A stretch of 20,948 nt of DNA. Origin: a virus. This document shows positions 11-19,152 of the stretch, one piece after another. The position numbers were made by a program, and so were the translations under genes. A model generated the notes under the pieces. That model made no database searches. It had not been told where the DNA came from and saw nothing but the letters and a program-made list of their open reading frames with translations. Positions within the stretch are counted from its first letter, which is position 1. Each line of letters starts with the position of its first letter. The stretch covers positions 1 to 20,948 of IMG/VR virus record IMGVR_UViG_3300036846_000595; one strand, written 5' to 3'.

Positions 11-229
11 TTATGCTGTCTCCTTGGGTTGGGACCGGGAGACGGCAAACATCAAGTCGCTCACGTCGACCTCGCCCTCGGTCGCAGCTAATATTTTCGT
101 CAGATTACCCCGCTTCGGGATCGTTGCGCCGTTCAACAGCCGATAGATCGTCGTTGGATGCACGCCCACGCGCGCCGCGAACGATTCCGGGCTCATTTGT
201 TTCTTGGCGAGGAACTCGCTTAGGCGCAT
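11..229 (-). CDS. Small Cro/CI-type HTH regulator, candidate phage repressor
   Basis: A 72-residue DNA-binding protein. Residues about 13-36 form a helix-turn-helix: SPESFAARVGVHPTTIYRLL, followed by the NGATIPK wing-like turn typical of XRE-family proteins. There is no second domain, so it is Cro-sized rather than a full CI with a dimerisation or RecA-cleavage domain. A frame-consistent start exists at 265, but the ATG at 229 begins exactly at the HTH domain and lies 7 bases from a good -10 (TATGGT, 241-236), which suggests a leaderless mRNA. No convincing ribosome binding site precedes it. It is divergent from the long plus-strand operon, and the intergenic space holds a perfect palindrome, the usual arrangement for a phage lysis-lysogeny switch. 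Repressor versus Cro role is undetermined. Confidence 0.8.
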   Translation of the reverse strand: MRLSEFLAKKQMSPESFAARVGVHPTTIYRLLNGATIPKRGNLTKILAATEGEVDVSDLMFAVSRSQPKETA

Positions 230-235
230 CGCGCT

Positions 236-265
236 ACCATAAAGACGCAGCCATCTAGCGGTCAA
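236..265 (-). promoter_or_regulatory. Leftward promoter of the HTH gene, apparently leaderless
   Basis: On the minus strand, -35 TTGACC (265-260) is followed by an 18-base spacer and -10 TATGGT (241-236). Transcription would start at about 229, the A of the ATG. That resembles the leaderless cI message made from lambda PRM. A TGCAAA half-site (266-271 on the plus strand), part of the 9-base palindrome GCAAATTGC (267-275), touches the upstream edge of the -35. It could let the regulator sense its own level. The assignment is by eye. Confidence 0.5.
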
Positions 266-6106: not shown

Positions 6107-6640
6107 GTGGAAAAGAGTCGAAGAGAATGCGGGAGCTGCACGCTCTGTTGCAAGCTCCTGCCGGTAAAGACCATCAGAAAACCAGCGAACACGCGCTGTC
6201 CGCATCAATCGTTCAAGGGATGCCGCGTCTACCATAAGCCCGAGAAAGGGTTCCCGTGGGAGTGCGGCCTATGGGAGTGCGTCTGGCTGGCGAACAACGA
6301 GGCGGAGGGCCTGCGCCGCCCTGATCATTGCCACTACGTGGTCGATATCATGCCCGACTACGTGACCAACGAGATGTCCGATGGGCAAAAGATCGTCATC
6401 CCGGTCGTGCAGATCTGGGCCGATCCGAAATATCCTGACGCCCACCGCGATCCCGCACTGCGGGCTTGGCTCATTCTCCGCAACGGATACTGCGGGCTCG
6501 TCCGCAACGGCAACGCCGACGGGCTCCTGATCGTGCCGCCGTACCTGAACGATTCGGGCAAATGGATTGAGAAGGGCAGCAATATGAAGGAGGAAAACCA
6601 TTCCTTCGGCCAAGTCCTTCAGGCGTTGGGTGCGGCGTGA
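6107..6640 (+). CDS. Cysteine-cluster protein (YkgJ-like N-terminus)
   Basis: 177 residues. The N-terminus has C-x2-C-x2-CC (Cys8, 11, 14, 15), then RCPHQSFKGCRVY (Cys31, Cys39) and ECGLWEC (Cys53, Cys58). That pattern fits the CxxxCxxCC-type zinc or iron-sulphur cluster proteins (YkgJ family), whose biochemical role is poorly known. The second half (about 80-160) is ordinary alpha/beta with IVPPYLNDSGKWIEKG near the end. It starts at GTG 6107, immediately after the preceding stop, with a G-rich ribosome binding site at 6094-6099. It overlaps the next gene by four bases (GTGA). An RNA- or DNA-linked role is not shown. Confidence 0.8.
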   Translation: MEKSRRECGSCTLCCKLLPVKTIRKPANTRCPHQSFKGCRVYHKPEKGFPWECGLWECVWLANNEAEGLRRPDHCHYVVDIMPDYVTNEMSDGQKIVIPVVQIWADPKYPDAHRDPALRAWLILRNGYCGLVRNGNADGLLIVPPYLNDSGKWIEKGSNMKEENHSFGQVLQALGAA

Positions 6641-6963
6641 GGCGCGCTATCATCGCCTCGCTCGCTATGCTGGTGGCGACCGACACGGCCTCGGCATGCC
6701 ACCGATTCAGCCGCTGGTACTATCCTTACCGCCAGAGCTGCCGGGTGACGGCGCTGGCCCCGCGCATGAGGTTTCGGCTCCCGCGCGCCCGGATCAATAT
6801 CCACCTAGTGACGGAGGCCACGCCGCCGCACCGAATCGCGACGTCGGTCCCGGACATCCCGCTGCCGGATCTCGTCGACATCGATTGGGGGCATCCCCCC
6901 GATGAAGACACGCGCGGGCGCCTACTCCTGCGCGTCATACTCCAAGGAAAGGAAGACAAATGA
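6637..6963 (+). CDS. Small secreted hypothetical protein
   Basis: 108 residues with a clear signal peptide: MRR, a hydrophobic stretch (AIIASLAMLVA), and an A-S-A cleavage site before Cys21. The Cys follows Ala-Ser-Ala rather than a proper lipobox, so signal peptidase I is more likely than lipoprotein processing. The mature protein starts CHRFSRWYYPYRQSC, rich in aromatic and basic residues. The start is GTG 6637 in a GTGA overlap. A secreted product in an early operon could act in the periplasm on the host envelope, but the target is unknown. Confidence 0.75.
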   Translation: MRRAIIASLAMLVATDTASACHRFSRWYYPYRQSCRVTALAPRMRFRLPRARINIHLVTEATPPHRIATSVPDIPLPDLVDIDWGHPPDEDTRGRLLLRVILQGKEDK

Positions 6964-7286
6964 GTGACGAAGCCCAAGCCCACGCCTCTTACGAGGTGCC
7001 CGGTGGCATCCATCGCGAGACGATCCATCCGACCGTGGACCCGGCGGCGCCCTTTCACCGGATTCTCCGAGACATCCCGCCACGGGAGCGCCCAGCCGAG
7101 CCGCCCTCCGAGCTGGCGAACATGGTGACGGCCGACGCGGTCAAGCGCTCCGAGGCCCGCCGCGACGCCATCCTCGCGGTCGCGCTCGCCGTCAAACGAC
7201 GCGGGCAGAATCCGATGACGGACTGGACGACCAAGGACACGGATACAGCCTACGCCATTGCGGAACAGCTAATCGCGCTCGCATAA
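6960..7286 (+). CDS. Hypothetical protein, last gene of the early operon
   Basis: 108 residues, soluble. The N-terminal half is Pro-rich and probably flexible. The C-terminal half (about 55-108) is helical: VTADAVKRSEARRDAILAVA, then TDTAYAIAEQLIALA. No family is recognised. The start is ATG 6960 in an ATGA overlap, with AAGGAAG a few bases upstream. A 7-base inverted repeat (AGCTAAT 7267-7273 with ATTAGCT 7286-7292) spans its stop codon, and the next promoter's -35 follows directly. Confidence 0.75.
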   Translation: MSDEAQAHASYEVPGGIHRETIHPTVDPAAPFHRILRDIPPRERPAEPPSELANMVTADAVKRSEARRDAILAVALAVKRRGQNPMTDWTTKDTDTAYAIAEQLIALA

Positions 7287-7291
7287 TTAGC

Positions 7292-7321
7292 TAGACAAAA
7301 GATGCAAATCGGCCCTACGAT
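7292..7321 (+). promoter_or_regulatory. Promoter for the structured intergenic RNA
   Basis: TAGACA (7292-7297, five of six matches to TTGACA), an 18-base spacer and TACGAT (7316-7321). The spacer starts with AAAGA then TGCAAATCGG (7303-7312); the same ten bases occur at 8324-8333 upstream of the PEP-CTERM genes. The start site would be about 7328, which coincides with the first base of the RNA's closing stem. Confidence 0.5.
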
Positions 7322-7326
7322 TGCCC

Positions 7327-7448
7327 CGTTAACCGGAGGAACCGGGGTCCCACAACCCCAGTTCTATCAGCACACACCCGGTTGACGCAGCAGGAAGGGG
7401 GGCCTCTCCCCAAGAGCCGCCACACTCCATGGAGACGGCCTCCCTTCC
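7327..7448 (+). ncRNA. Candidate structured small RNA between early operon and PEP-CTERM genes
   Basis: Three nested elements are visible. First, CGTTAACCGG (7327-7336) pairs with CCGGTTGACG (7378-7387) over ten positions with one G-U. Inside it, GGGGT (7344-7348) pairs with ACCCC (7355-7359). Second, GGAAGGGGGGCC (7393-7404) pairs with GGCCTCCCTTCC (7437-7448) over twelve positions with one G-U, extended by TCTCC/GGAGA (7405-7409 with 7431-7435) around one bulged C. A promoter places the start at about 7328. The 3' end is not clear; hairpins continue to 7520. No plausible reading frame is confined to it. No known RNA family is recognised. Confidence 0.5.
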
Positions 7449-7460
7449 AAGCATATCGCA

Positions 7461-7490
7461 AAGAAAAGGGGAAGGCCGAAGCCTCCCCCC
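7461..7490 (-). terminator. Intrinsic terminator of the leftward PEP-CTERM gene
   Basis: On the minus strand, GGGG-AGGC (7488-7481), a TTCG tetraloop and GCCT-CCCC (7476-7468, one bulged base) form a strong hairpin followed by TTTTCTTT (7467 down to 7460). It lies about 45 bases past the PEP-CTERM stop. A second hairpin, CGACCAC/GTGGTCG (7498-7504 with 7514-7520), lies between. On the plus strand the hairpin has no U-run. Confidence 0.8.
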
Positions 7491-7531
7491 ACGGGACCGA
7501 CCACTTGAGCGGCGTGGTCGAGCCCTAACTC

Positions 7532-8251
7532 CTAGAACGCGAAACGCGCCTGACGCGACTTACGCACGCCCAAGAATCCCAACAGACCAAAGCCAATCGC
7601 CATCATCGCCCAAGTCGAGGGCTCCGGCACTATGGCCTGCATCGACTGATCGAAGCCGGTCACCGAGGCTCCGCCGATGAGGTTGAGGCTCGCCGACTCT
7701 GTCATCGAGAACGGGCTGTCGGCGATGAACCCCGTGGTCGTGGTGCCGCTAAAGCTGTCAGGATTCGTCGCTGGCGTGCCGGACGTGCTGAGCAGCGCGA
7801 TGCCCGGTGTATTGGTCGGGTTCGCCCCCTGCACGTTGGCGGGATCGGCAAAGAAGCTGAGCGTTGATGGCCCTGACCCGACAGCCGAGTTGAAGGTCAA
7901 CGACCCGCTCTCCGTGATGCTCTTGACCGGCGCGAGGAAGTTGGTGTCGCTGGCCACGAGGCCGACGGTGATCGGGGCGCCCGTCTCATTGATGATGTTG
8001 GCGCTGGACAGCTGCAAATCATCGGGCGGACCGAATGCGCTTTGAGTGAGCGTGAGCTGGACGAACGCGCCGCCGATCACGGTGTTGATGGTCAACAGGT
8101 TGTTCGCGAGGCTGGAATTATCGCAACTCAGCTGACCATCGAAGCACGAGAACGTGGCGCCATTGGCGGTGATACTGACTTGCAACCGGGCGTCGGCCGA
8201 CGTCGCGCCCAGCGCGGCGAGAAACGCAGTAGACAACAATAATTTGTGCAT
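7532..8251 (-). CDS. PEP-CTERM (PEPxxWA-type) surface protein 1
   Basis: 239 residues. It has a signal peptide (MHKLLLSTAFLAALGATSADA), a beta-rich Ser/Thr/Gly/Asn-rich body with one close Cys pair (CFDGQLSC), and a C-terminal sorting signal starting at residue 208: VPEPSTWAM, a hydrophobic segment, then an Arg/Lys tail. PEP-CTERM proteins are exported, cut and probably anchored by a host exosortase; many are linked to exopolysaccharide or cell-surface roles. The start at 8251 is chosen because AGGGG lies just upstream with good spacing; ATG 8257 is possible. It has its own terminator and stands divergent from a second PEP-CTERM gene. No exosortase gene is in the window, so processing would need the host. 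Confidence 0.9.
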   Translation of the reverse strand: MHKLLLSTAFLAALGATSADARLQVSITANGATFSCFDGQLSCDNSSLANNLLTINTVIGGAFVQLTLTQSAFGPPDDLQLSSANIINETGAPITVGLVASDTNFLAPVKSITESGSLTFNSAVGSGPSTLSFFADPANVQGANPTNTPGIALLSTSGTPATNPDSFSGTTTTGFIADSPFSMTESASLNLIGGASVTGFDQSMQAIVPEPSTWAMMAIGFGLLGFLGVRKSRQARFAF

Positions 8252-8270
8252 GAGCATCCCCTGTGGTTCG

Positions 8271-8289
8271 GTCGTAGGGCTACTACGAC
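8271..8289 (-). promoter_or_regulatory. Perfect inverted repeat in the PEP-CTERM 1 leader
   Basis: GTCGTAG (8271-8277), a five-base loop and CTACGAC (8283-8289) form a seven-base perfect stem about 20 bases before the start codon at 8251 and just upstream of its ribosome binding site. It could be an mRNA leader hairpin or a protein-binding operator distinct from the TTGCA palindromes. Confidence 0.4.
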
Positions 8290-8312
8290 TCCATGACCAT
8301 TTGAACACTAAT

Positions 8313-8329
8313 CTTGCACGAAATGCAAA
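8313..8329. promoter_or_regulatory. TTGCA-N5-TGCAA palindrome upstream of PEP-CTERM 1
   Basis: CTTGCA (8313-8318), spacer CGAAA, TGCAAA (8324-8329). The layout is the same as at 291-307, 8385-8401 and 10681. Read leftward, the element would overlap the -35 of the gene starting at 8251, but the matching -10 (GTTCAA or TTCAAA at 8306-8300) is weak, so that promoter may need activation. Its centre is 72 bases from the centre of the palindrome at 8385-8401, about seven helical turns. Confidence 0.5.
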
Positions 8330-8384
8330 TCGGTGACGGCGGCGCTTGGGCGGTGCGAGGCGTTTTGGTCGCCATCGTGACCTG

Positions 8385-8413
8385 TTTGCGAGCAGTGCAA
8401 ATCAATGTATGGT
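8385..8413 (+). promoter_or_regulatory. Rightward promoter of PEP-CTERM 2 with overlapping palindrome
   Basis: TTTGCG (8385-8390) as -35, a 17-base spacer and TATGGT (8408-8413) as -10, leaving a leader of about 80 bases before ATG 8503. TTTGCG-AGCAG-TGCAAA (8385-8401) repeats the palindrome layout over the -35 and spacer. The -10 hexamer is the same as the one proposed for the HTH gene. Confidence 0.5.
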
Positions 8414-8502
8414 GAAGACAGCCTCGCATTGCCCAAAGCGTGCGAGGGTTTAAGGTCGTGGCTCCAGCCATGATCTGGGATCTTTTGAAGGGGTACACAA
8501 AA

Positions 8503-9195
8503 ATGAAAAAGCTACTTTTAACAACGACGCTGCTGGCCGCGATGGGAGCGGTTCCGGCGAGGGCGGCGGTCACCGCCACCTTCTGCGGCCCCTCCACCGA
8601 GGGCGGGACGTGCGAAGGACCGGGTGAAACCAAGGTGTTTCTCAATGAGGGGCACACCGAAGCCTCCGGCTCAGGCACGGTCGGCACGAGCGGACCGACG
8701 CTTCTGTTCAGCGTCGATGGCGGCGCGCTCGACACGCGGGTCGACACTGGCGGCGGCTTCGCCAACATCACGTCGGCCGGGGCCGACAAGATCGCCGACT
8801 TCAACGGGATCGACATCACCATCCCCGGCTTCACCTTCACTGACATCGCGTTCGACGTGCAGTTGAACCCGACCGAGGAGAGCGGCATCGACACGTTCAC
8901 CGCAGAGGCCTTCTCCGGCGCCCACATCAGCGATGGCGTTTTCATCGGCTCAGATACGCCCGACGACGACAAGCAGTTCTCGCTGACGGCGACGGGCGGG
9001 GCGTTCGACGAAGTCAATCTTCTGAGCGCCGATGGCTTCAAGGAGATCAAGCACATCGAAATCTCAGGGATCTCTCCGATTGTTTCGGCGGTGGTGCCCG
9101 AGCCTTCGACCTGGGCCATGTTCATCGCTGGCTTCGGCTTGATGGGCTTGATGGGCTGGACACGTTCGCGCCCTGCGCGACTTAATTTGTCGTAA
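8503..9195 (+). CDS. PEP-CTERM (PEPxxWA-type) surface protein 2
   Basis: 230 residues. It has a signal peptide (MKKLLLTTTLLAAMGAVPARA), a beta-rich acidic body with an early close Cys pair, and a sorting signal from residue 198 (VPEPSTWAM, hydrophobic GFGLMGLMGW, then RSRPAR). The start at 8503 has AAGGGG about nine bases upstream; the in-frame extension from 8440 is not a plausible signal peptide. The body shows no obvious similarity to PEP-CTERM 1 beyond the signal and sorting ends, so the pair is not a recent duplication. It has its own promoter and a strong terminator, a cassette-like layout typical of accessory genes in phages. Confidence 0.9.
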   Translation: MKKLLLTTTLLAAMGAVPARAAVTATFCGPSTEGGTCEGPGETKVFLNEGHTEASGSGTVGTSGPTLLFSVDGGALDTRVDTGGGFANITSAGADKIADFNGIDITIPGFTFTDIAFDVQLNPTEESGIDTFTAEAFSGAHISDGVFIGSDTPDDDKQFSLTATGGAFDEVNLLSADGFKEIKHIEISGISPIVSAVVPEPSTWAMFIAGFGLMGLMGWTRSRPARLNLS

Positions 9196-10680: not shown

Positions 10681-10709
10681 CTTGCAGTTGATGCGAATTG
10701 CACTATGTT
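10681..10709 (+). promoter_or_regulatory. Promoter of the reversed membrane gene, with the early-promoter motif
   Basis: CTTGCA (10681-10686), a 17-base spacer and TATGTT (10704-10709): the best sigma-70-like match among the promoters in the window. The first 14 bases repeat those at 291-304 exactly, including the GTTGA palindrome spacer. A second inverted arrangement overlaps it, TGCG-AATT-GCAC (10692-10703). Transcription would start near 10716, about 19 bases before GTG 10735. Confidence 0.65.
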
Positions 10710-10734
10710 GAGCGGGCCTACAGGAGTCGAAGCC

Positions 10735-10941
10735 GTGGTCTTCTTAATCTTATCGCCGGGTGCCTTTATCGCCATCGTCTTGGCCGAGATCATCTGGGGC
10801 GCGCATGACCTTAAGAAACGGCAAGAGCGCGAAAACCCGACGCCAAAAAAGCCGATGGACCCGCGAGAGGAAGGGATGGGGGCATTGCTTGCTTTAATAC
10901 CAATCGTTCTCTTTCTCGCTGGCGCTTTGCTCTTTGGGTGA
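10735..10941 (+). CDS. Small two-span membrane protein, reversed among virion genes
   Basis: 68 residues. It has two hydrophobic segments (VFLILSPGAFIAIVLAEIIW at the start; LLALIPIVLFLAGALLFG at the end) joined by a charged loop (KKRQERENPTPKKPMDPRE) that should face the cytoplasm. The start is GTG 10735: AGGAG at 10722-10726 is eight bases upstream, whereas the in-frame ATG at 10705 lies inside the -10 of the promoter. Its stop is only four bases from the stop of the converging 648-residue virion gene. It has its own promoter and an orientation opposite to both flanking late genes, a typical moron layout. Exclusion or host-membrane modification is possible; the function is unknown. Confidence 0.75.
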   Translation: MVFLILSPGAFIAIVLAEIIWGAHDLKKRQERENPTPKKPMDPREEGMGALLALIPIVLFLAGALLFG

Positions 10942-10945
10942 TTCA

Positions 10946-12892
10946 TTAAGGCTGGCCTCCTCCGCCGGGATCCACGGATGAGTTGCCGCCGCCGTGCTCT
11001 TCCTCCTCCCGCGTCATCGCCGCTGCGGCGAGCGCCATCGGATCGACCTTCGCTCCGAGCTGCGCGCCCATGGTGGCAGTGACGCGCGTCGCCGCGTTGC
11101 GGATCAAATTGGCGTTGCCCGTCCCAACGGCGCTCACGAAGGCGCCCGCAGCCCCGGACCCCGCTGGGGTCGCCAAGAATTTACCTAGGGCTCGCCCGCC
11201 CATGAACGCCGTGAGCGTCTTCAGCGGGTGGCGCCATCCCTCGATCGCCATGCCGACGCCGACGCCGTGCCCCGCCGTCCCCGACGGGTTCGCGTATTTG
11301 TAGAGGCTCTTCCATTGCCGGGAGACGGTCGCGAGATCGTCGAGGTTCTGGCGCAATGGGCCGCCCTGCGCAAACAGCTCGTCCTTGGCCTCGTCGGAAA
11401 TCTTGCCGTAGTCCGTCAGGAACCGTTGCGGGCTGAAGTTGCCGTCGGCGTCCCGACCGAATTGCGAGACCATCCCTTGTGACAGCTCGTTCCAATCATT
11501 CGGCGCCACCTTGTCGCGCGCCAGCTTAAGCAGATTGATATTCCCGCCCTTCGCTTGAGCGGCGCGCTGCAACGCGCCGTAAATGCCCTCCGGGGGAGCA
11601 TTGGCCTGCTGGCCGCCGAGAATCTTGAGGAGGCTTTCCCGCTGAGCTTGGGTCTGGGCGTTCAGGGCGTTGGCGCGGTTGAAGGCGGCCGAGGCCCCAG
11701 CCGGGTCACGCGCGGAATAGCGCACCGCATCCGCGAGATCGCTTGAGAGGCCGCTGTAAAGCGTCTTCAGTTCGGCTTGCGACGAGCCTGCGGGAAGGAT
11801 GCTTTGATCCATCATCTCGCCGATGCGTGAGCGGAGATTTTTGATCCCGTCGTAAGTCAGGCCGATCGGCTTATTGATGGCGTTGTTGATCAGGTCGAAA
11901 GCCTCGCCGCTCGGCTCATCTCCGTAGGTGCCTCGCTTGGCGATAATGTCCCGCATCGACTGCTGGACGCCGTTGAGCGAGTTTGAGCTGATGTTCTGGT
12001 TCACGAATTGATTGACGTTATCGTAGGCGGCGCTCACGCGCGCTTTGGAGCCCGGTCCGACCCAGTCCTTGAGCGCGTCCCCCACCTTTTCGCCCGCCGA
12101 CAGAGGCGTGGATCCCGCCGCCGCCGTGTCGGCAGCCGAACCCATCCCATGCACCGACTCCGAGGTGGCTTCTTCGAGCGGCGTCGACATGCCGGGAATG
12201 CTGTGCCCGACCATGCCTGCCCGCTGGACGAGCGGCGAGGTTGAAACCGCATAGCGCGGCATGGTGACGCCAAGCCGGTCGGCCGCGCTCAGAACAGCCT
12301 TGCGCGTGGCGTCTCCGGCGACAGGCGCGATCGCGCTGACAGCCTTCGCGCCTCCGGCCCCGAGCCCCGCGCCAAGGATGGTCCGGCCAACGGTGCCAAC
12401 CGCGCTGTCGCCCGATTCGACCCCTTCGCTGAGCCCGAGCGCTCCGCCCGCCAGCGCCGCCCCTTTCACGGTCGCGCCACCCGGCATCGCGAGCATCGGA
12501 ACCACGCCCGCCGCAGCGGTCGTATAGGGATGGGCTTCCTGTAGGTTCGCGGCATTGCCGAATATCCGCGCGCGATTCTCCGCGTAGCGCTGCGCCCAGC
12601 CTTCGCCGGTTTGGTCGACCGGGGCGTCGCCGGGAGCGCGCATCCATTTCGGCAGATAGCTTTCGGCAGTCTCGACCGCTGCGCCCATGGTTTTGCCGAA
12701 CGGAAGGCCGCCGACGAGGCCGTACTTGATGGCGTTGCCTTGCGAGAGATCGTCGCCCCCGAGCGCCGCCGAGGACGACCCACCGCTCCAATCATCCGGG
12801 CCGGAATCGGAGGGGGTCCCGCCGCTCGGCTTACTGGCGGCGGCGGGAGACTGCCCGGTAACCCAATCGTCGGGGCCAGTGGGGGCGGCCAT
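10946..12892 (-). CDS. Glycine-zipper virion protein, probable DNA-ejection component
   Basis: 648 residues. The N-terminus repeats GPDDW twice (residues 6-10 and 31-35) in a Ser/Gly/Pro-rich stretch; short repeated D-x-W motifs are common at the start of phage internal virion proteins. Membrane-active glycine-zipper segments follow (AAAGVVPMLAMPGG, ALAGGALGLSEG, ILGAGLGAGGAKAV). A long helical middle (about 280-530) comes next, with another zipper near the end (GHGVGVGMAIEGW, ATPAGSGAAGAFV). This layout fits proteins ejected with phage DNA to form a channel across the envelope. The ATG overlaps the stop of the giant upstream gene by three bases (ATGA), so the two are coupled. Confidence 0.75.
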   Translation of the reverse strand: MAAPTGPDDWVTGQSPAAASKPSGGTPSDSGPDDWSGGSSSAALGGDDLSQGNAIKYGLVGGLPFGKTMGAAVETAESYLPKWMRAPGDAPVDQTGEGWAQRYAENRARIFGNAANLQEAHPYTTAAAGVVPMLAMPGGATVKGAALAGGALGLSEGVESGDSAVGTVGRTILGAGLGAGGAKAVSAIAPVAGDATRKAVLSAADRLGVTMPRYAVSTSPLVQRAGMVGHSIPGMSTPLEEATSESVHGMGSAADTAAAGSTPLSAGEKVGDALKDWVGPGSKARVSAAYDNVNQFVNQNISSNSLNGVQQSMRDIIAKRGTYGDEPSGEAFDLINNAINKPIGLTYDGIKNLRSRIGEMMDQSILPAGSSQAELKTLYSGLSSDLADAVRYSARDPAGASAAFNRANALNAQTQAQRESLLKILGGQQANAPPEGIYGALQRAAQAKGGNINLLKLARDKVAPNDWNELSQGMVSQFGRDADGNFSPQRFLTDYGKISDEAKDELFAQGGPLRQNLDDLATVSRQWKSLYKYANPSGTAGHGVGVGMAIEGWRHPLKTLTAFMGGRALGKFLATPAGSGAAGAFVSAVGTGNANLIRNAATRVTATMGAQLGAKVDPMALAAAAMTREEEEHGGGNSSVDPGGGGQP

Positions 12893-15800
12893 CAGAGCGG
12901 TTTCCCGTTCGCGTCATAAAGCTTGCCGGACGGGTCGCGCCATTGTTTCCGGCTCGGGCTGTATTGCGAGCCTTCCGGCATGCCGCTCGGCAGCGTTGGC
13001 GCGGTCGGCATGTCCTCGCCGGTCGTGGTCTTGAGCGTCTCTGGCGTGATGCCCTTGAACATCGGAATCTCTTTGCGCGCGGCGTCGCGGTAGGTCTCCC
13101 ACTTGTGCCCCTTGGCGAACTCCGTGACGCCAGACGAGACGTCGTACTGCTTCGAGCCGACCGTATTGTAGAGTTCGTGGTTGTAATCGAGCGAGGCCAG
13201 CGAATCCGTGAGGATCTTGCGCAGCGCGGCCGGGTCCATGGTCGGCTTCGCGATCATCAGCATCGCTTCACGCAGGCCAGCGCGTGGCGCCTTCTGCATG
13301 CCCGAATCCGCGACCTGTTGGAACGCCTGCTTGACTGCTGTCTTCATCGCGGCGTCGAAGCCAGCCGCCTGCGGCAGCTTGAGCCCGAGCGCATTCGCCC
13401 AGCTCGCCAGTTCGGCCTGCGCCTCGCCGGATCGGCCAGCCTGATAATGGCTATAGATGTCCGACAGTTCTTTGAGCTGGTTGCGAGTGTCGTCGTAGGT
13501 CGACTCGAATTTGGTCCGGTCTTCGAGATACTTCTGATAGACCGGCTTTTGCGCCTCGGTCACCGCCTCGGTCGCCTTCTCGCCGATCTCCTTCGAGATG
13601 CCCCCTCGATTCTTCGCCCCCTCGATCAGTTCGGTGCCTCGCGTGACCTCGGCGTCGCCCATGCCCTTCGAGAGCCAGTTGTCGTCATTGCCCTGCTGAA
13701 CGAGCGCCGTGCCTTTGATGTAATCGGGGTCCTTGGTGTAGTCGGCGCCAGCGATGCCGCCCGCAGGAGCCCCGCCTGCTGGAGCCCCGCCCGCAGGAGC
13801 TGGAGCGCTGCCGCTCGGAGCAGGAGCTGCGCCGGAAGGCCCCGCGCCGCCGCTGGGAGCCGCGCCAGAGCCCGTCCCGCTTGGGAGCGGCCCGACGGAG
13901 GGCAGCGGGGCGACGCCCGTCCCTGAGCCATCTGTGGGGCTTGCAGCCCCGGCGCCGTCCCCGCCGCCGCCAGCGAGGCGTTGGCGCATCCGGTTGATCA
14001 CAAGCTGCGTCATCTGCCGCTGGAGCTGGAGCTGGTTCACCTTGATGTCGGCGTCCGCGCCGTGCTCGCGCGCCTCGGCCGACAGGTTCTGGATCTGCGC
14101 TTGATTGAGGCCCCAGTCCTTCTCAAGCGACTGCATCTGGCCGAGATACTTGTTCCCGGCCTCAAGGCCTTCGCCGACTCCAACCCCGAGCCATGGCGAG
14201 CGCGACGCCATCATCCCCGCGCCGACCGTCATCATGTAGCCGAACGGGTCGCGCCGCAGCTCGGAGCCGAGAGTCGGCGGTTGAGACGTCTGCTGGCCGC
14301 CGCCGGGAGGAATGGAGAAGCCGCCGCCATACCCTTCGGTCGTTCCCGAAACGGGCATCGCGCCTGACGAAGGCAGATCCCGCTGCTGTAGGTAGCCGGT
14401 CTGGTAGGTCCCGCCGCCGCCGGTTATTTTGTCCGCTTGGCTCTTGGTCGACCAGTCATTCCAGCCGTGCTTGGCGGTGTAGTCGGCGACAAACTTGATT
14501 TGGTCGGGCACCGTCTTGGGATCGCGCGCATCGAGGCCCGTCTGCTTGGTGAACTCGTCGCCCAGACCGGGATGCGGCATATCCTTGTTGACGCCGCCGT
14601 AATGCAGCTGGAACGGCCCGAAGGACGAGCCGCCGTCGCCGATGTAGCTCTTGCCCCCACTGCTTTCGAGGCGAGAAATGGTCGAGGCATAACCAGCCCG
14701 GTCGCCGAAATGCTGATTGATCAGGCTCCCGACATCGCCGCCCGCAGGAGCTGCGGCTGGCGGCTCGCTGCCATGCAATGCAGCGCTTACGTCCGGCGCG
14801 AACGCTTGTTGTAAGGCGGTGTCGGTCGCCGCGTCCGCCGCGTTCCCGCCATCTGAAAAGCCGCTGCGCAGGGAGCCAAGCCCCACGCCACCTCCTGTCG
14901 CAAAGCCTATGTCGCCGCCGCCGGTCAGGGCTAGGCCTAAGCCCAAGTCCGCATCCGAATAGCCGAAGTCATTCCAGCCCCCACCTCCGCCTCCGCCTCC
15001 GCCTCCGCCTGTTGATCCAGTCGGCGAGCCTTGGACGCCGGTCTTGAACTGCTTCGCCAGATCGCCTGCCTGCTTCATGAGGTCGCTGGGGCCGCCCCCC
15101 GGCTTGCCGTCGCCTGCTGGCTCGGGCGGCTTGGGCGCCTGCGGCGGCGGCGGCGGTCCAGATCCGCCTCGGGACTGCGGCGACGAGGCCATGATCTCAG
15201 CGAGAAATGGGTCACCGCCATCCGCGAAGCCCTCGCGCTCGCCGCCGCCGAACATGTCACCAAATCCGGCGGCCGATTTGGCGGTTTGAAAAGACCCGAC
15301 CCCTCCCCCTTGCGAAGTCTGGCCGTCCAAGGCGAATCCCTGCGGCGAGTAAGCGCCCGCGTTGCCGATCGGCGAGGAGCCCATCAGGCCGCCGCCGCCT
15401 TGGCGGCCGACCCGGCCGCCAGTCCACTGTCCGGTATCGGCATAGGGATCGACGGAGCGTCCAGTTCCATGCCGAGTCGTCGTTGCGCCGAGGTTGCCGC
15501 CGCTGCCGAAGAGCGTGGAGACCCCGCTCCCGGGGGTATTCTCTCCTCCGAGGTAACCCTCATTGGGCGGGACCCAAGAATTGTACTGCTTCTGCCGCGC
15601 GACAATCTCCGGATCGACGATTCCCGGCGCCCTCCCGCCTCCGCCTCCGCCGCGCGAGCGAATGATATGCCGCGCAATGGCGATGGCAGGATGAACCGGC
15701 GCTTGGGCGCGCATCCTCGGATCGATTCCGCCGCCGCCGGGGTCGGGCACGTAGGTCGCGCCCCGCGCATTGCCGGTCGTCGGCACATAGTGTCCGAGGT

Positions 15801-18800
15801 TGAGCGCGGTGACCGTGTTCCCACCCATCTCCGAGATCGGAATAGCGAAGGGCGCTTGTCCGGATCCGCCAGACAAGGAGCGCGGCGGAATCCGTTGCGC
15901 CGACATCGGCGCGGCGTTGCGCGACGGGACATTGGCTGGGTTGCTCTGGCCCCAGTCGATATCGCTCAGTCCGCCTCCGCCTCCACTATCGAAGGCGTGA
16001 TCTCCGAGGTTGGCGAATGTCTGGTCGAGGTCCAGTCCGCTTAGATCGCCGCCGTCCTGCGGATGCACGCTCCCGCCGCCAGACGGCCACGGCATATTCC
16101 GGGTGGCAGGATCATCAGTGACGTTGCCGCCGTCGTCGCGGCCGATGCGCCCGCCCCAGCGATAATTCACCGGGCCTTCGTCGCCCCAGCCCGCCTCGGC
16201 GCGCGGATCGCGCGGCGTCGGCTCGACATCGCCCCGGCCCGGGGCTCCGCCTTCGGTGTCCCACGTCCCAAGGTCGGTCACATGCGACTGCGGCGGGCCT
16301 GCTTGGATCACTTTCGGCGGCCCGTAATTCGTCGAGTGGCCGCCGTAAGGCTTCGACATCCACGACTCATCGAGCGGAGCGTCGGGCGGTGGGCCAGACG
16401 GTCCTCGGCCGGGGCCGCCCGAGCCGACCATGCCGGGACCGCCGATGTTGCGCGGGAAGTCTTTCGGCGCCAGCTCGCCGGTCTCGGCTGGGTCCGCTCT
16501 CAGAACCTCTCTGCCGGTTGAGATGGCGCGGCCGAGTGGCGTGTTCCGGAAGCCGAACTTCATCCACCACGGCATCTCGCCCCCGGCGAACTCGCTCTCG
16601 GGAACGGTCGCTTGGCCGGGGGGAGGCAAGGCAGTTTCCTCGTTGGGAATGCCGCCTATCCTGCCGGGTTCGCCTCTCTCTCCCCAAGGTCCGAACCCCG
16701 GCCTGCGCAGCGGCTCTTTGGTGCCGAATTGATTCGGCGGGGTGAACTCCGGCGGGATCTTCGCCCCGAAGCGCGGCGGCGGCGCTTCCATCCCCTTCGG
16801 GTCGAGCGGCCCGCCAGCTGCGCCCGGGCCGCCGCCTGCGGCGCCGGGAGTCGGCCACATCGGATAGCGCATGGTCGAAGGATGCTGCGGTTGCGGCGTT
16901 TGCTGCTGCTGCTGCCGCTGCGGGGTGATGTCGTGATGCTGGCCAGTGGTCGGGTCCTGCGCGATGACGCGCGGCCGGACGAGGCCGTGCTGGACCGCCG
17001 CCGTGGCGCGCGCCTTTCCCTGAAGCTGCCGCTGAATCGCGATCGCGGGAGGCAGCTGCGCAGGCGGATTATAGGTCGCGCCCCGCGCATTGCCGGTCGT
17101 CGGGGTGTAGTAGCTGTAACGCGGGTCATTGAGCATCGGCATGCCGCCGCCTTGGAAGCCCGCCCGTCCGCCATCTGCGCGACCCATTGCACCGCCTCCT
17201 CCTCCGCCCATCCCGGGCATCCATACCATCTCCCCCGGGACGTTCGTCCCGCCGCCCCCGCCGCCGTGATTGAAGGAGTAAGCGCCAGCCGCGCCACCCG
17301 TGACTTGCCCACCGGGCGTCTGCGCCCAATGCCCTTGCGGGGGAGCCGCCGGAGCGGCGGCCTTGGCGGCGGCCGGGGTCGCAGCCGGAGTTTGGTTGGG
17401 GGTCTGTCCGGGCGTGTAGTCGGGGCCGAAGAGCCCCTTGAGCGAGGCCTCGGCCGCGCCGAACTGCGGCGAGTTCTGAAGGTTCTGGTAGTCCGGTTGC
17501 GGCGAGGCGGTGGCGCCGCCGGGGCCAAGGTTGCCGCCCGTGCCAAGGCCGCCGCCCGTGCCGCCGATCGACGGCATCCACCCGCCTTCGCCGATCGCCT
17601 CGATCTGGTTGAGATCGAGGCCGTAGGACGGATCTTTCGTCCCCGCCGTCAGCTGTTGGTAAAGCGACGTGGCGACGCCAGAGGTGGGATCGACGAGATC
17701 CCCCGGCTGCCATCCTCCGTAGCTGGTCTGGCGTGGGTCCGAGCTGTAACTGATGGGGGACTCCGCAGCGATGCCGCCGCCTTGGAAGCCTTTCCGCAGC
17801 GGGACGGTGTCGAAGCCGGGATTCGGGTGCGCGCTGGCGCCGCCCATGAGCGCCATCGGGCCGTAGCCCATGCGCGCGCCCGGGTCGCCCATCATCATCA
17901 AATCGCTCGACGGAGAGGCCCCGCCCGAGCCGCCGCCGCCAGAACCGCTCAAGCTGCCCAAGCCCATGGCGCCCATGCCAGCCACGCCCATCCCCGGTGC
18001 GCCTCCCATCGCGAAATGGCCGCGCTCGGCCGCGTCGTCGGTCGCGCCCCTGTAGTCGACGCCGAGGAGATCGCCGATGCCGATCCGCTTGACATTGCCG
18101 GGGTCGCGATAGGCCTCTTCCTGCGCGAGGAGTCCGATCTGCGTGCGCGGGTCGCCCTTGAAGTTGTAGCGATAGATGTTCTGCCCATCGTAGGTCTTGC
18201 CGACGGGCTCGATGTTCTCTTTCGCGCGCTCGTCCGAAAGGCCGAACAGGCTGCCGAGAATCCCGAGGCCTTGCATGCCCGCGCCAATTCCTTGGCTGAG
18301 CGTGTTCGGAGCAGGCGAGGTCGTGGTGCTCGATCCCGAGCCCCCGGACAGACCTCCGGTCCCTTCGATGATGTTGCCGAGCCAGCCCGTCGTCGTGAAC
18401 GGATAGGCTTGCCCGGTCTGGTACATGTTCTGCGCGGCGGTATCGATCGCCTGCTGTTCCTGCTGGGGGATCATCCCCGCTTGGATCTGCGCCTGCGAGC
18501 CCTGCAATCCGGCCTGCTGAGCGGACTGGCCAATCGAGCCGAGCTGGGCGGCTCCCGTCATCTGGCGCGCCTGATTGGCTTGCTGAGCCGCAAGGTTCAC
18601 GCCTTGCTGGTTCTGCCAGTTGCTCATCGCCTGATTGTAGTTGGCCTGATTCAGGCCCGCGATCGTCGGGGCCTCGGCCAGCTGTTGCTGATTGGCTAGG
18701 ATCGACTGCCCGATGCCCGCTCTGTCCCCGCCGAACGCCCCAGAACTTATGTTCGCGCTGTTGAGAAACTGTGCCTGTTGCTGGTTCTGATTATTCATCT

Positions 18801-19152
18801 CCCCTTGGGTCGCCTGAACGACCGACTGGGTGTACGGATTCATGTAGTTTTGGAGCGAACCCATGCCTTGGAATTGCTCGGGGTTCACGGCCCCCGAAGC
18901 GCCCATGGTCATGCCCGCCGCAGCTCCGAGATAGGGCTGCGCGGCGTTGGCGTACTGGCTGATTCCACCGAGCCCCTGAAGCGTCTGGCTGGTCAGCGGG
19001 GCGACCTGTTCGCCTTGGTAGGGTTGGTAAGGCTGGTTGGCCACATTCGTCGCGCGGTCGACGAGGCCTTGGTACTCAGCCATCACTTGGGGCGGAGGCG
19101 ATGACGACGACGCGGTCGACGTTTGCTGAGTGCTGCCGCCCTTCTGGCCCAT
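12892..19152 (-). CDS. Giant fused virion protein: S74-like segment, Gly-rich repeats, lysozyme domain
   Basis: 2086 residues. Residues 1-300 are a Gln/Ala-rich helical virion region (EYQGLVDRATNVANQPYQPY start). Residues about 306-370 are S74/endosialidase-chaperone-like: SDERAKENIEPVGKTYDG, YNFKGDPRTQIGLLAQE, GVDYRGAT. Residues about 375-1465 are Gly/Pro-rich low complexity with repeated G-R-x-G-F-x-x-GG units. Residues about 1470-1575 form a lysozyme/transglycosylase-like domain: ISRLESSGGKS with Glu1496 as likely catalytic acid, then SSFGPFQLHYGG. The last 500 residues are helical with a PAGGAPAGG linker. The start at 19152 has GGAG about eight bases upstream. It probably forms part of the ejection machinery and cuts peptidoglycan during infection. 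These parts are usually separate proteins. Confidence 0.88.
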   Translation of the reverse strand: MGQKGGSTQQTSTASSSSPPPQVMAEYQGLVDRATNVANQPYQPYQGEQVAPLTSQTLQGLGGISQYANAAQPYLGAAAGMTMGASGAVNPEQFQGMGSLQNYMNPYTQSVVQATQGEMNNQNQQQAQFLNSANISSGAFGGDRAGIGQSILANQQQLAEAPTIAGLNQANYNQAMSNWQNQQGVNLAAQQANQARQMTGAAQLGSIGQSAQQAGLQGSQAQIQAGMIPQQEQQAIDTAAQNMYQTGQAYPFTTTGWLGNIIEGTGGLSGGSGSSTTTSPAPNTLSQGIGAGMQGLGILGSLFGLSDERAKENIEPVGKTYDGQNIYRYNFKGDPRTQIGLLAQEEAYRDPGNVKRIGIGDLLGVDYRGATDDAAERGHFAMGGAPGMGVAGMGAMGLGSLSGSGGGGSGGASPSSDLMMMGDPGARMGYGPMALMGGASAHPNPGFDTVPLRKGFQGGGIAAESPISYSSDPRQTSYGGWQPGDLVDPTSGVATSLYQQLTAGTKDPSYGLDLNQIEAIGEGGWMPSIGGTGGGLGTGGNLGPGGATASPQPDYQNLQNSPQFGAAEASLKGLFGPDYTPGQTPNQTPAATPAAAKAAAPAAPPQGHWAQTPGGQVTGGAAGAYSFNHGGGGGGTNVPGEMVWMPGMGGGGGGAMGRADGGRAGFQGGGMPMLNDPRYSYYTPTTGNARGATYNPPAQLPPAIAIQRQLQGKARATAAVQHGLVRPRVIAQDPTTGQHHDITPQRQQQQQTPQPQHPSTMRYPMWPTPGAAGGGPGAAGGPLDPKGMEAPPPRFGAKIPPEFTPPNQFGTKEPLRRPGFGPWGERGEPGRIGGIPNEETALPPPGQATVPESEFAGGEMPWWMKFGFRNTPLGRAISTGREVLRADPAETGELAPKDFPRNIGGPGMVGSGGPGRGPSGPPPDAPLDESWMSKPYGGHSTNYGPPKVIQAGPPQSHVTDLGTWDTEGGAPGRGDVEPTPRDPRAEAGWGDEGPVNYRWGGRIGRDDGGNVTDDPATRNMPWPSGGGSVHPQDGGDLSGLDLDQTFANLGDHAFDSGGGGGLSDIDWGQSNPANVPSRNAAPMSAQRIPPRSLSGGSGQAPFAIPISEMGGNTVTALNLGHYVPTTGNARGATYVPDPGGGGIDPRMRAQAPVHPAIAIARHIIRSRGGGGGGRAPGIVDPEIVARQKQYNSWVPPNEGYLGGENTPGSGVSTLFGSGGNLGATTTRHGTGRSVDPYADTGQWTGGRVGRQGGGGLMGSSPIGNAGAYSPQGFALDGQTSQGGGVGSFQTAKSAAGFGDMFGGGEREGFADGGDPFLAEIMASSPQSRGGSGPPPPPQAPKPPEPAGDGKPGGGPSDLMKQAGDLAKQFKTGVQGSPTGSTGGGGGGGGGGGWNDFGYSDADLGLGLALTGGGDIGFATGGGVGLGSLRSGFSDGGNAADAATDTALQQAFAPDVSAALHGSEPPAAAPAGGDVGSLINQHFGDRAGYASTISRLESSGGKSYIGDGGSSFGPFQLHYGGVNKDMPHPGLGDEFTKQTGLDARDPKTVPDQIKFVADYTAKHGWNDWSTKSQADKITGGGGTYQTGYLQQRDLPSSGAMPVSGTTEGYGGGFSIPPGGGQQTSQPPTLGSELRRDPFGYMMTVGAGMMASRSPWLGVGVGEGLEAGNKYLGQMQSLEKDWGLNQAQIQNLSAEAREHGADADIKVNQLQLQRQMTQLVINRMRQRLAGGGGDGAGAASPTDGSGTGVAPLPSVGPLPSGTGSGAAPSGGAGPSGAAPAPSGSAPAPAGGAPAGGAPAGGIAGADYTKDPDYIKGTALVQQGNDDNWLSKGMGDAEVTRGTELIEGAKNRGGISKEIGEKATEAVTEAQKPVYQKYLEDRTKFESTYDDTRNQLKELSDIYSHYQAGRSGEAQAELASWANALGLKLPQAAGFDAAMKTAVKQAFQQVADSGMQKAPRAGLREAMLMIAKPTMDPAALRKILTDSLASLDYNHELYNTVGSKQYDVSSGVTEFAKGHKWETYRDAARKEIPMFKGITPETLKTTTGEDMPTAPTLPSGMPEGSQYSPSRKQWRDPSGKLYDANGKPL
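13757..13805. repeat. Tandem 15-base repeat encoding PAGGA units
   Basis: About three imperfect copies of a 15-base unit (CCCGCAGGAGCCCCG-like) encode the PAGGAPAGGAPAGG linker in the C-terminal third of the giant virion protein. In-frame repeats like this can gain or lose units without breaking the gene. Confidence 0.6.
14984..15010. repeat. CCTCCG hexamer tract encoding poly-glycine
   Basis: Four and a half copies of CCTCCG encode most of an uninterrupted glycine run in the giant virion protein, just before WNDFGYSD. The unit is six bases, so slippage keeps the frame. Confidence 0.75.
15752..15783. repeat. 32-base direct repeat, copy 1, inside the giant gene
   Basis: It starts TAGGTCGCGCCCCGCGCATT and is identical over 32 bases to 17072-17103, in the same orientation and frame. 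It encodes PTTGNARGATY on the minus strand. Both copies are followed in the protein by a Pro-rich spacer and a P-A-I-A-I-x-R motif, so the duplicated unit was probably larger and has diverged around this core. Confidence 0.9.
17072..17103. repeat. 32-base direct repeat, copy 2, inside the giant gene
   Basis: Identical to 15752-15783, 1320 bases away. The protein context is PTTGNARGATYNPPAQLPPA followed by IAIQRQLQGK. The first gene of this virion set encoding a similar N-terminal motif (NPSAIRIQRML) is at 19965-20672. Confidence 0.9.

Follow-up and report, generated by a model that had tools for sequence, protein, structure and literature searches.

The window analysed here is an entire IMG/VR record of 20,948 bases. 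The RNA locus lies in the gap 7287-7531, with the early module ending on one side and a PEP-CTERM gene transcribed toward it on the other, which is the placement given in the original prediction. Upstream of the RNA are a YqaJ/RecE-like exonuclease, a RecT annealing protein and small early genes, and downstream are PEP-CTERM proteins and tail genes. The open reading frame at 11-265 (minus strand) appeared helix-turn-helix repressor-like by eye. A second PEP-CTERM gene (8440-9195, plus strand) is divergent from the one at 7532-8308 (minus strand) across a shared region with two putative operator dyads, and PEP-CTERM-like genes were found again in relatives of the window phage. At 6107-6640 (plus strand), a cysteine-rich protein (CxxCxxCC) is encoded, which has relatives in Bradyrhizobium and other Hyphomicrobiales genomes and showed no match in Pfam or PHROG. 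A 2086-aa open frame containing stretches rich in glycine and proline runs along the minus strand at 12892-19152; for a record of 20.9 kb this late protein is very large. The features of the window used in the analysis are as follows.

256-270 and 292-306: two dyads TTGCA-N5-TGCAA (probable operators) in the early promoter region, conserved in relatives
6960-7286, plus strand: final gene of the early module, coding for a 108-aa unknown protein, kept 5' of the RNA in relatives
7292-7321, plus strand: predicted sigma-70-type promoter TAGACA-N18-TACGAT, consensus match 9/12
7302-7308, plus strand: half site ATGCAAA of the probable operator TTGCA-N5-TGCAA, by sequence match; the full dyad is lost
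7327-7387, plus strand: P0, outer stem around P1 (7327-7336 / 7378-7387) in the MFE fold, window-specific and replacing P2 of the relatives
7339-7364, plus strand: P1, conserved hairpin with arms 7339-7348 / 7355-7364 and loop CCCACA at 7349-7354, from covariation and the invariant loop
7393-7448, plus strand: P3, conserved long 3' hairpin with arms 7393-7409 / 7431-7448, from the MFE fold and covariation, in terminator position
7410-7430, plus strand: apical part of P3 with the mini-hairpin GAG-CCGCCACA-CTC at 7414-7427, from the MFE fold and the ensemble
7467-7490, minus strand: intrinsic terminator, a separate element, with a 10-pair stem, a 4-base loop and a TTTCTTT tail
7532-8308, minus strand: PEP-CTERM protein gene, convergent with the RNA (PF07589, 30.9 bits)
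8314-8328 and 8386-8400: two dyads TTGCA-N5-TGCAA (probable operators) before the PEP-CTERM genes, conserved in relatives
10682-10696: dyad TTGCA-N5-TGCAA (probable operator), preceding the gene of a 78-aa membrane protein (10705-10941, plus strand), conserved in relatives

The MFE fold agreed exactly with the proposal for 7327 to 7448, showing both long stems as well as the enclosed hairpin. The outer stem (7327-7336 / 7378-7387) is composed of 10 pairs and encloses the hairpin 7339-7364, and the 3' stem (7393-7409 / 7431-7448) is composed of 17 pairs with one bulge. One G-U pair is present in the 10-pair stem and one within the outer 12 pairs of the 3' stem, as was claimed for the main arms. 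The folding energy was compared with shuffled controls, as suggested with the prediction. On the plus strand, 7327-7448 reached -61.9, while the shuffles averaged -39.4 (z -6.35), and none of the 200 dinucleotide-preserving shuffles was as low. The whole span 7292-7490 gave a z of -7.57 with the same kind of shuffles, and the minus strand folded more weakly than the plus strand (z -3.8). The window displays the CCACA loop twice, in P1 (7349-7354) and at the tip of P3 (7417-7424). No U-run follows its P3; AAGCAT comes next, so termination at this hairpin is less clear. Of the span 7292-7490 given with the prediction, the 3' portion holds a separate element, the minus-strand terminator at 7490-7467, which most likely ends the PEP-CTERM transcript.

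A related RNA was found in 13 other IMG/VR contigs, representing about nine distinct sequences (L002/L003, L004, L010, L011, L024, L027, L030, L031 along with L032 and L033, L039, and L043). The relatives were gathered through the 108-aa neighbour gene, a 177-aa early protein and DNA patterns derived from the loop. All members carry the RNA in the identical genomic slot, where the early (recombination) module ends, ahead of a convergent late module. One related contig (L049) is without the RNA and by eye has a PEP-CTERM-like gene in that slot. The folds of the relatives gave z values from -3.9 to -9.4, with 0 or 1 of 200 shuffles as stable. In the six members compared on both strands, the plus strand always had the better z, as expected of an RNA read from that strand. 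Wider pattern scans revealed no further member, only unrelated terminators or chance matches, and a weak covariance-model match in G008 was unconvincing by eye. The RNA covariance model also found no match in eight genomes holding relatives of the 177-aa protein, where 150 candidates per genome were scored.

Searches for the neighbouring 108-aa protein in 84,980 species genomes, 272 Bradyrhizobium genomes and 398 genomes from the order of that genus gave no match. Among named phages there was no useful DNA match to the window, near or distant, and the 177-aa early protein had a match, a weak one, in a single Rhizobium phage. Most relatives of the 177-aa protein come from genomes of Bradyrhizobium and other Hyphomicrobiales, and among the reference genomes examined none was found to carry the RNA-bearing phage. 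The window phage is a soil phage and probably a temperate phage of alphaproteobacteria.

Residue conservation and pairing were analysed in an alignment of ten rows, holding about ten distinct sequences including the window, several of them closely related. The P1 loop CCCACA is identical in every member, and in the ensemble it is unpaired with probability 1.0 in 9 of 9. The stem beneath it changes: two-sided compensatory changes were observed in 6 of its 9 pairs with 93% of cells paired, and when the partners were slid by one base as a control, pairing fell to 53-56%. P3 is present in all members, with 100% of cells paired in an 8-pair core and two-sided changes in 3 pairs. G-U pairs occur in both P1 and P3. 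For the whole RNA, 11 of 23 pairs showed two-sided changes, and the observed score was reached by none of 500 shuffles, which do not keep relatedness; the slid controls do keep it, and collapse. The substitutions in relatives keep P1 and P3 paired by compensatory changes. Of the stems described, the 3' stem P3 and the enclosed hairpin P1 are conserved and the 10-bp outer stem is not. P0 is absent from the consensus, and where the window has P0 the relatives have a middle hairpin, P2. Members of the larger clade have ACCUCCU in the loop of P3, and its first bases are mostly unpaired in the ensemble. U-runs as in intrinsic terminators follow P3 in L027, L030, L031 and L039, and therefore P3 can serve as terminator there.

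A covariance model of all ten rows gave one strong match per phage, always at the RNA slot, these being matches by construction. A model of the larger clade, built without the window, L024 and L043, found all three (E 2.4e-4, 7e-5 and 9e-7, respectively, on a rough calibration). Coding origin is unlikely, because many gaps in the alignment are not multiples of three and the stems change in a compensatory way.

Searches of Rfam 15 with the window and two relatives detected no family above the gathering threshold at the RNA, and the sole match there with E up to 5 was a sub-threshold microRNA on the other strand of L004. No tRNA or tmRNA was found. RF02791 (CcsR) scored 17.7-18.9 bits, against a gathering threshold of 65.3, elsewhere in the phages and nowhere at the RNA. 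In the late module a hairpin with the loop CCUCCCACA is conserved (window 9576-9540, minus strand; L002 at about 7078-7044, minus strand). It is terminator-like, with a T-run in L002, and weak sub-threshold matches of RF02791 (CcsR1) fall at it. Taken together, the covariation, the constant slot, the matches of the held-out model, the lack of an Rfam family and the promoter boxes and operator matches of the relatives bear out the prediction of an undescribed structured RNA with its own promoter, and a real, previously undescribed family of small structured RNAs is well supported from the sequences.

The promoter proposed for a start at 7328 was recovered as a consensus match, and TAGACA-N18-TACGAT is the only sigma-70-like match in 6900-8700, where 0.3 were expected. 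A start near 7328 is predicted from this match. Relatives possess promoter-like (-10-like) boxes some tens of bases 5' of P1. In all five phages examined, the junction of the putative repressor gene with the early operon holds two dyads TTGCA-N5-TGCAA, and this dyad is a probable operator of the phage repressor. With a weight matrix trained solely on the ten sites of the repressor/early junction, the sRNA promoter region was found to hold the dyad, as one of the first to sixth best sites of the locus, in 8 of 8 relatives. These sites overlap the -35/spacer or -10 region or sit just upstream. In the window, the best operator match at the sRNA promoter ranks 53rd in the locus. The RNA is probably part of the repressor regulon, because operator matches lie in the sRNA promoters of relatives and the dyad is also found before other genes.

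A single element GTCGCCCCGCAG(A)AGGGGCGTGGATCGAAAC follows P3 in L030 and L039, about 14 nt away and on the same strand. Its positions are as follows.

L030, 9358-9388, and the same place in L039 (G002, 60785-60815, minus strand, and G004, 49934-49963, minus strand): solitary repeat

We take this repeat to be of the type I-C form. By pattern it is present as a single copy in each of these two phages (G002 and G004), and neither the window nor any of six further phage records searched with the type I-C pattern has it. When 385 genomes of the class were scanned, it was detected in one alphaproteobacterial genome, in eight regularly spaced copies forming a CRISPR array; the element of L030 and L039 is therefore a solitary repeat unit, and it is a candidate RNA anti-CRISPR by this comparison. 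RNA anti-CRISPRs made of solitary repeats have been shown experimentally, including a type I-C example co-transcribed with the preceding gene (PMC10651486).

The best explanation, to which we assign an even chance, is a repressor-regulated, trans-acting sRNA that would pair with host RNAs through exposed C-rich loops. A promoter of its own, located where the early module ends, would drive transcription of a non-coding RNA of ~120 nt, from 7328 to about 7448 on the plus strand, and the 3' hairpin P3 would end the transcript. The phage repressor, bound to its operators, would keep the RNA off or low in the lysogen, and it would come on along with the early genes; low or no expression in the lysogen is expected because the promoter regions of most relatives hold probable repressor operators. 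CCCACA of P1 and the P3 loop would then pair in trans with messenger or small RNAs of the host; in the larger clade, the ACCUCCU of this P3 loop could pair with Shine-Dalgarno sites. The P1 loop is suggested as the point of contact because it is fixed and exposed on a drifting stem. No conserved complement of CCCACA was found at phage translation starts, which makes a host target probable. A trans-acting, base-pairing sRNA is the likeliest reading because of the size, the structure, the terminator in several relatives and the P3 loop of the larger clade, which could pair with Shine-Dalgarno sites. Against this explanation, the window copy has no full operator, no U-run and no ACCUCCU loop.

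A loop that never varies while its stem changes could equally well be bound by a protein. In that case the CCCACA/CCACA loops would act as a decoy that sequesters an RNA-binding protein or a nuclease of the host; alternatively, the locus would be a slot for RNA anti-CRISPRs. We consider this decoy or anti-defence reading, the next likeliest, rather unlikely. The freely changing P1 stem under its constant loop and the double display of CCACA in the window are in line with a decoy, and the solitary type I-C-like repeat behind P3 in L030 and L039 is in line with an anti-CRISPR slot, as is the known co-transcription of a type I-C RNA anti-CRISPR with the gene before it (PMC10651486). However, the window and six other phage records are without the type I-C pattern, P1-P3 do not resemble a CRISPR repeat, and the protein partner is purely putative. 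It is distinctly unlikely that the element is a mere terminator or insulator between the convergent early and late modules with no function in trans. The slot between convergent modules in every relative and the terminator-like P3, with U-runs in several of them, would suit such a role, but it would need no invariant P1 loop, no covarying P1, and no promoter or operator; moreover, P3 of the window is without a U-run and the minus-strand gene owns a separate terminator.

An antisense regulator had been offered as one option; it would act in cis on the 3' end of the transcript from the convergent late or PEP-CTERM gene. The RNA does lie on the strand opposite to the convergent gene, and in relatives the stop of the late gene comes just past P3. 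We nevertheless regard it as very improbable, since the convergent gene varies (PEP-CTERM in the window, a small membrane protein in most relatives), the PEP-CTERM transcript of the window should end at 7467 before reaching the RNA, and the invariant loop and compensatory changes are left unexplained. Scarcely probable at all is symmetry at the level of DNA, as in a binding, packaging or replication site. Long inverted repeats can be DNA sites and operator dyads are present in the promoter region of relatives, but pairing is kept while the stem sequences change, P1 and P3 contain G-U pairs, and the plus strand folds better than the minus strand in every member compared. The earlier suggestion that pairing of RNA rather than DNA symmetry matters is thus favoured by these same observations.

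The preferred trans-acting sRNA can be compared with several known systems. DicF is a phage-encoded, trans-acting small RNA. PreS of lambda and VpdS of VP882 are also small RNAs encoded by phages (PMC12197685). Similar to these three, the window RNA would be a small RNA with its own transcription unit in a temperate phage and a probable base-pairing regulator; it differs in having no Rfam relation, a different host group and an invariant hairpin-loop motif. Lambda OOP, P22 sar and P1 c4 are likewise short phage RNAs tied to the lysis/lysogeny circuit (PMC12197685), but they pair with a phage gene, whereas here the P1 loop has no conserved phage complement. CcsR (RF02791) and the alphaproteobacterial sRNAs with CCUCC loops share C/U-rich loops that can pair with Shine-Dalgarno sequences, represented by ACCUCCU in the larger clade; unlike CcsR, the new RNA has no RF02791 match, and the weak matches below the gathering threshold are in other phage hairpins only. 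The resemblance to Racr and solitary repeat units lies in the type I-C-like repeat of two relatives, placed behind the RNA and downstream of the same promoter, while the RNA of the window itself neither mimics a repeat nor is followed by one.

A further reading, which we hold to be decidedly improbable, joins these elements in an RNA-only counter-defence locus under the repressor, where the CCCACA loops of a structured RNA would sequester an RNA-binding or defence factor of the host and two relatives would add, on the same transcript, a mimic of a CRISPR repeat. If true, one non-coding unit would block more than one host system.

To our knowledge, little is known of phage small RNAs outside enterobacteria and vibrios. 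The family described here is small and well delimited; comparison of relatives supports its structure, it probably has a place in a repressor regulon, and its fixed loop motif can be mutated. In two phages it is physically linked to a probable RNA anti-CRISPR. With this family one can ask directly whether alphaproteobacterial soil phages rely on RNAs to steer or to disarm the host.
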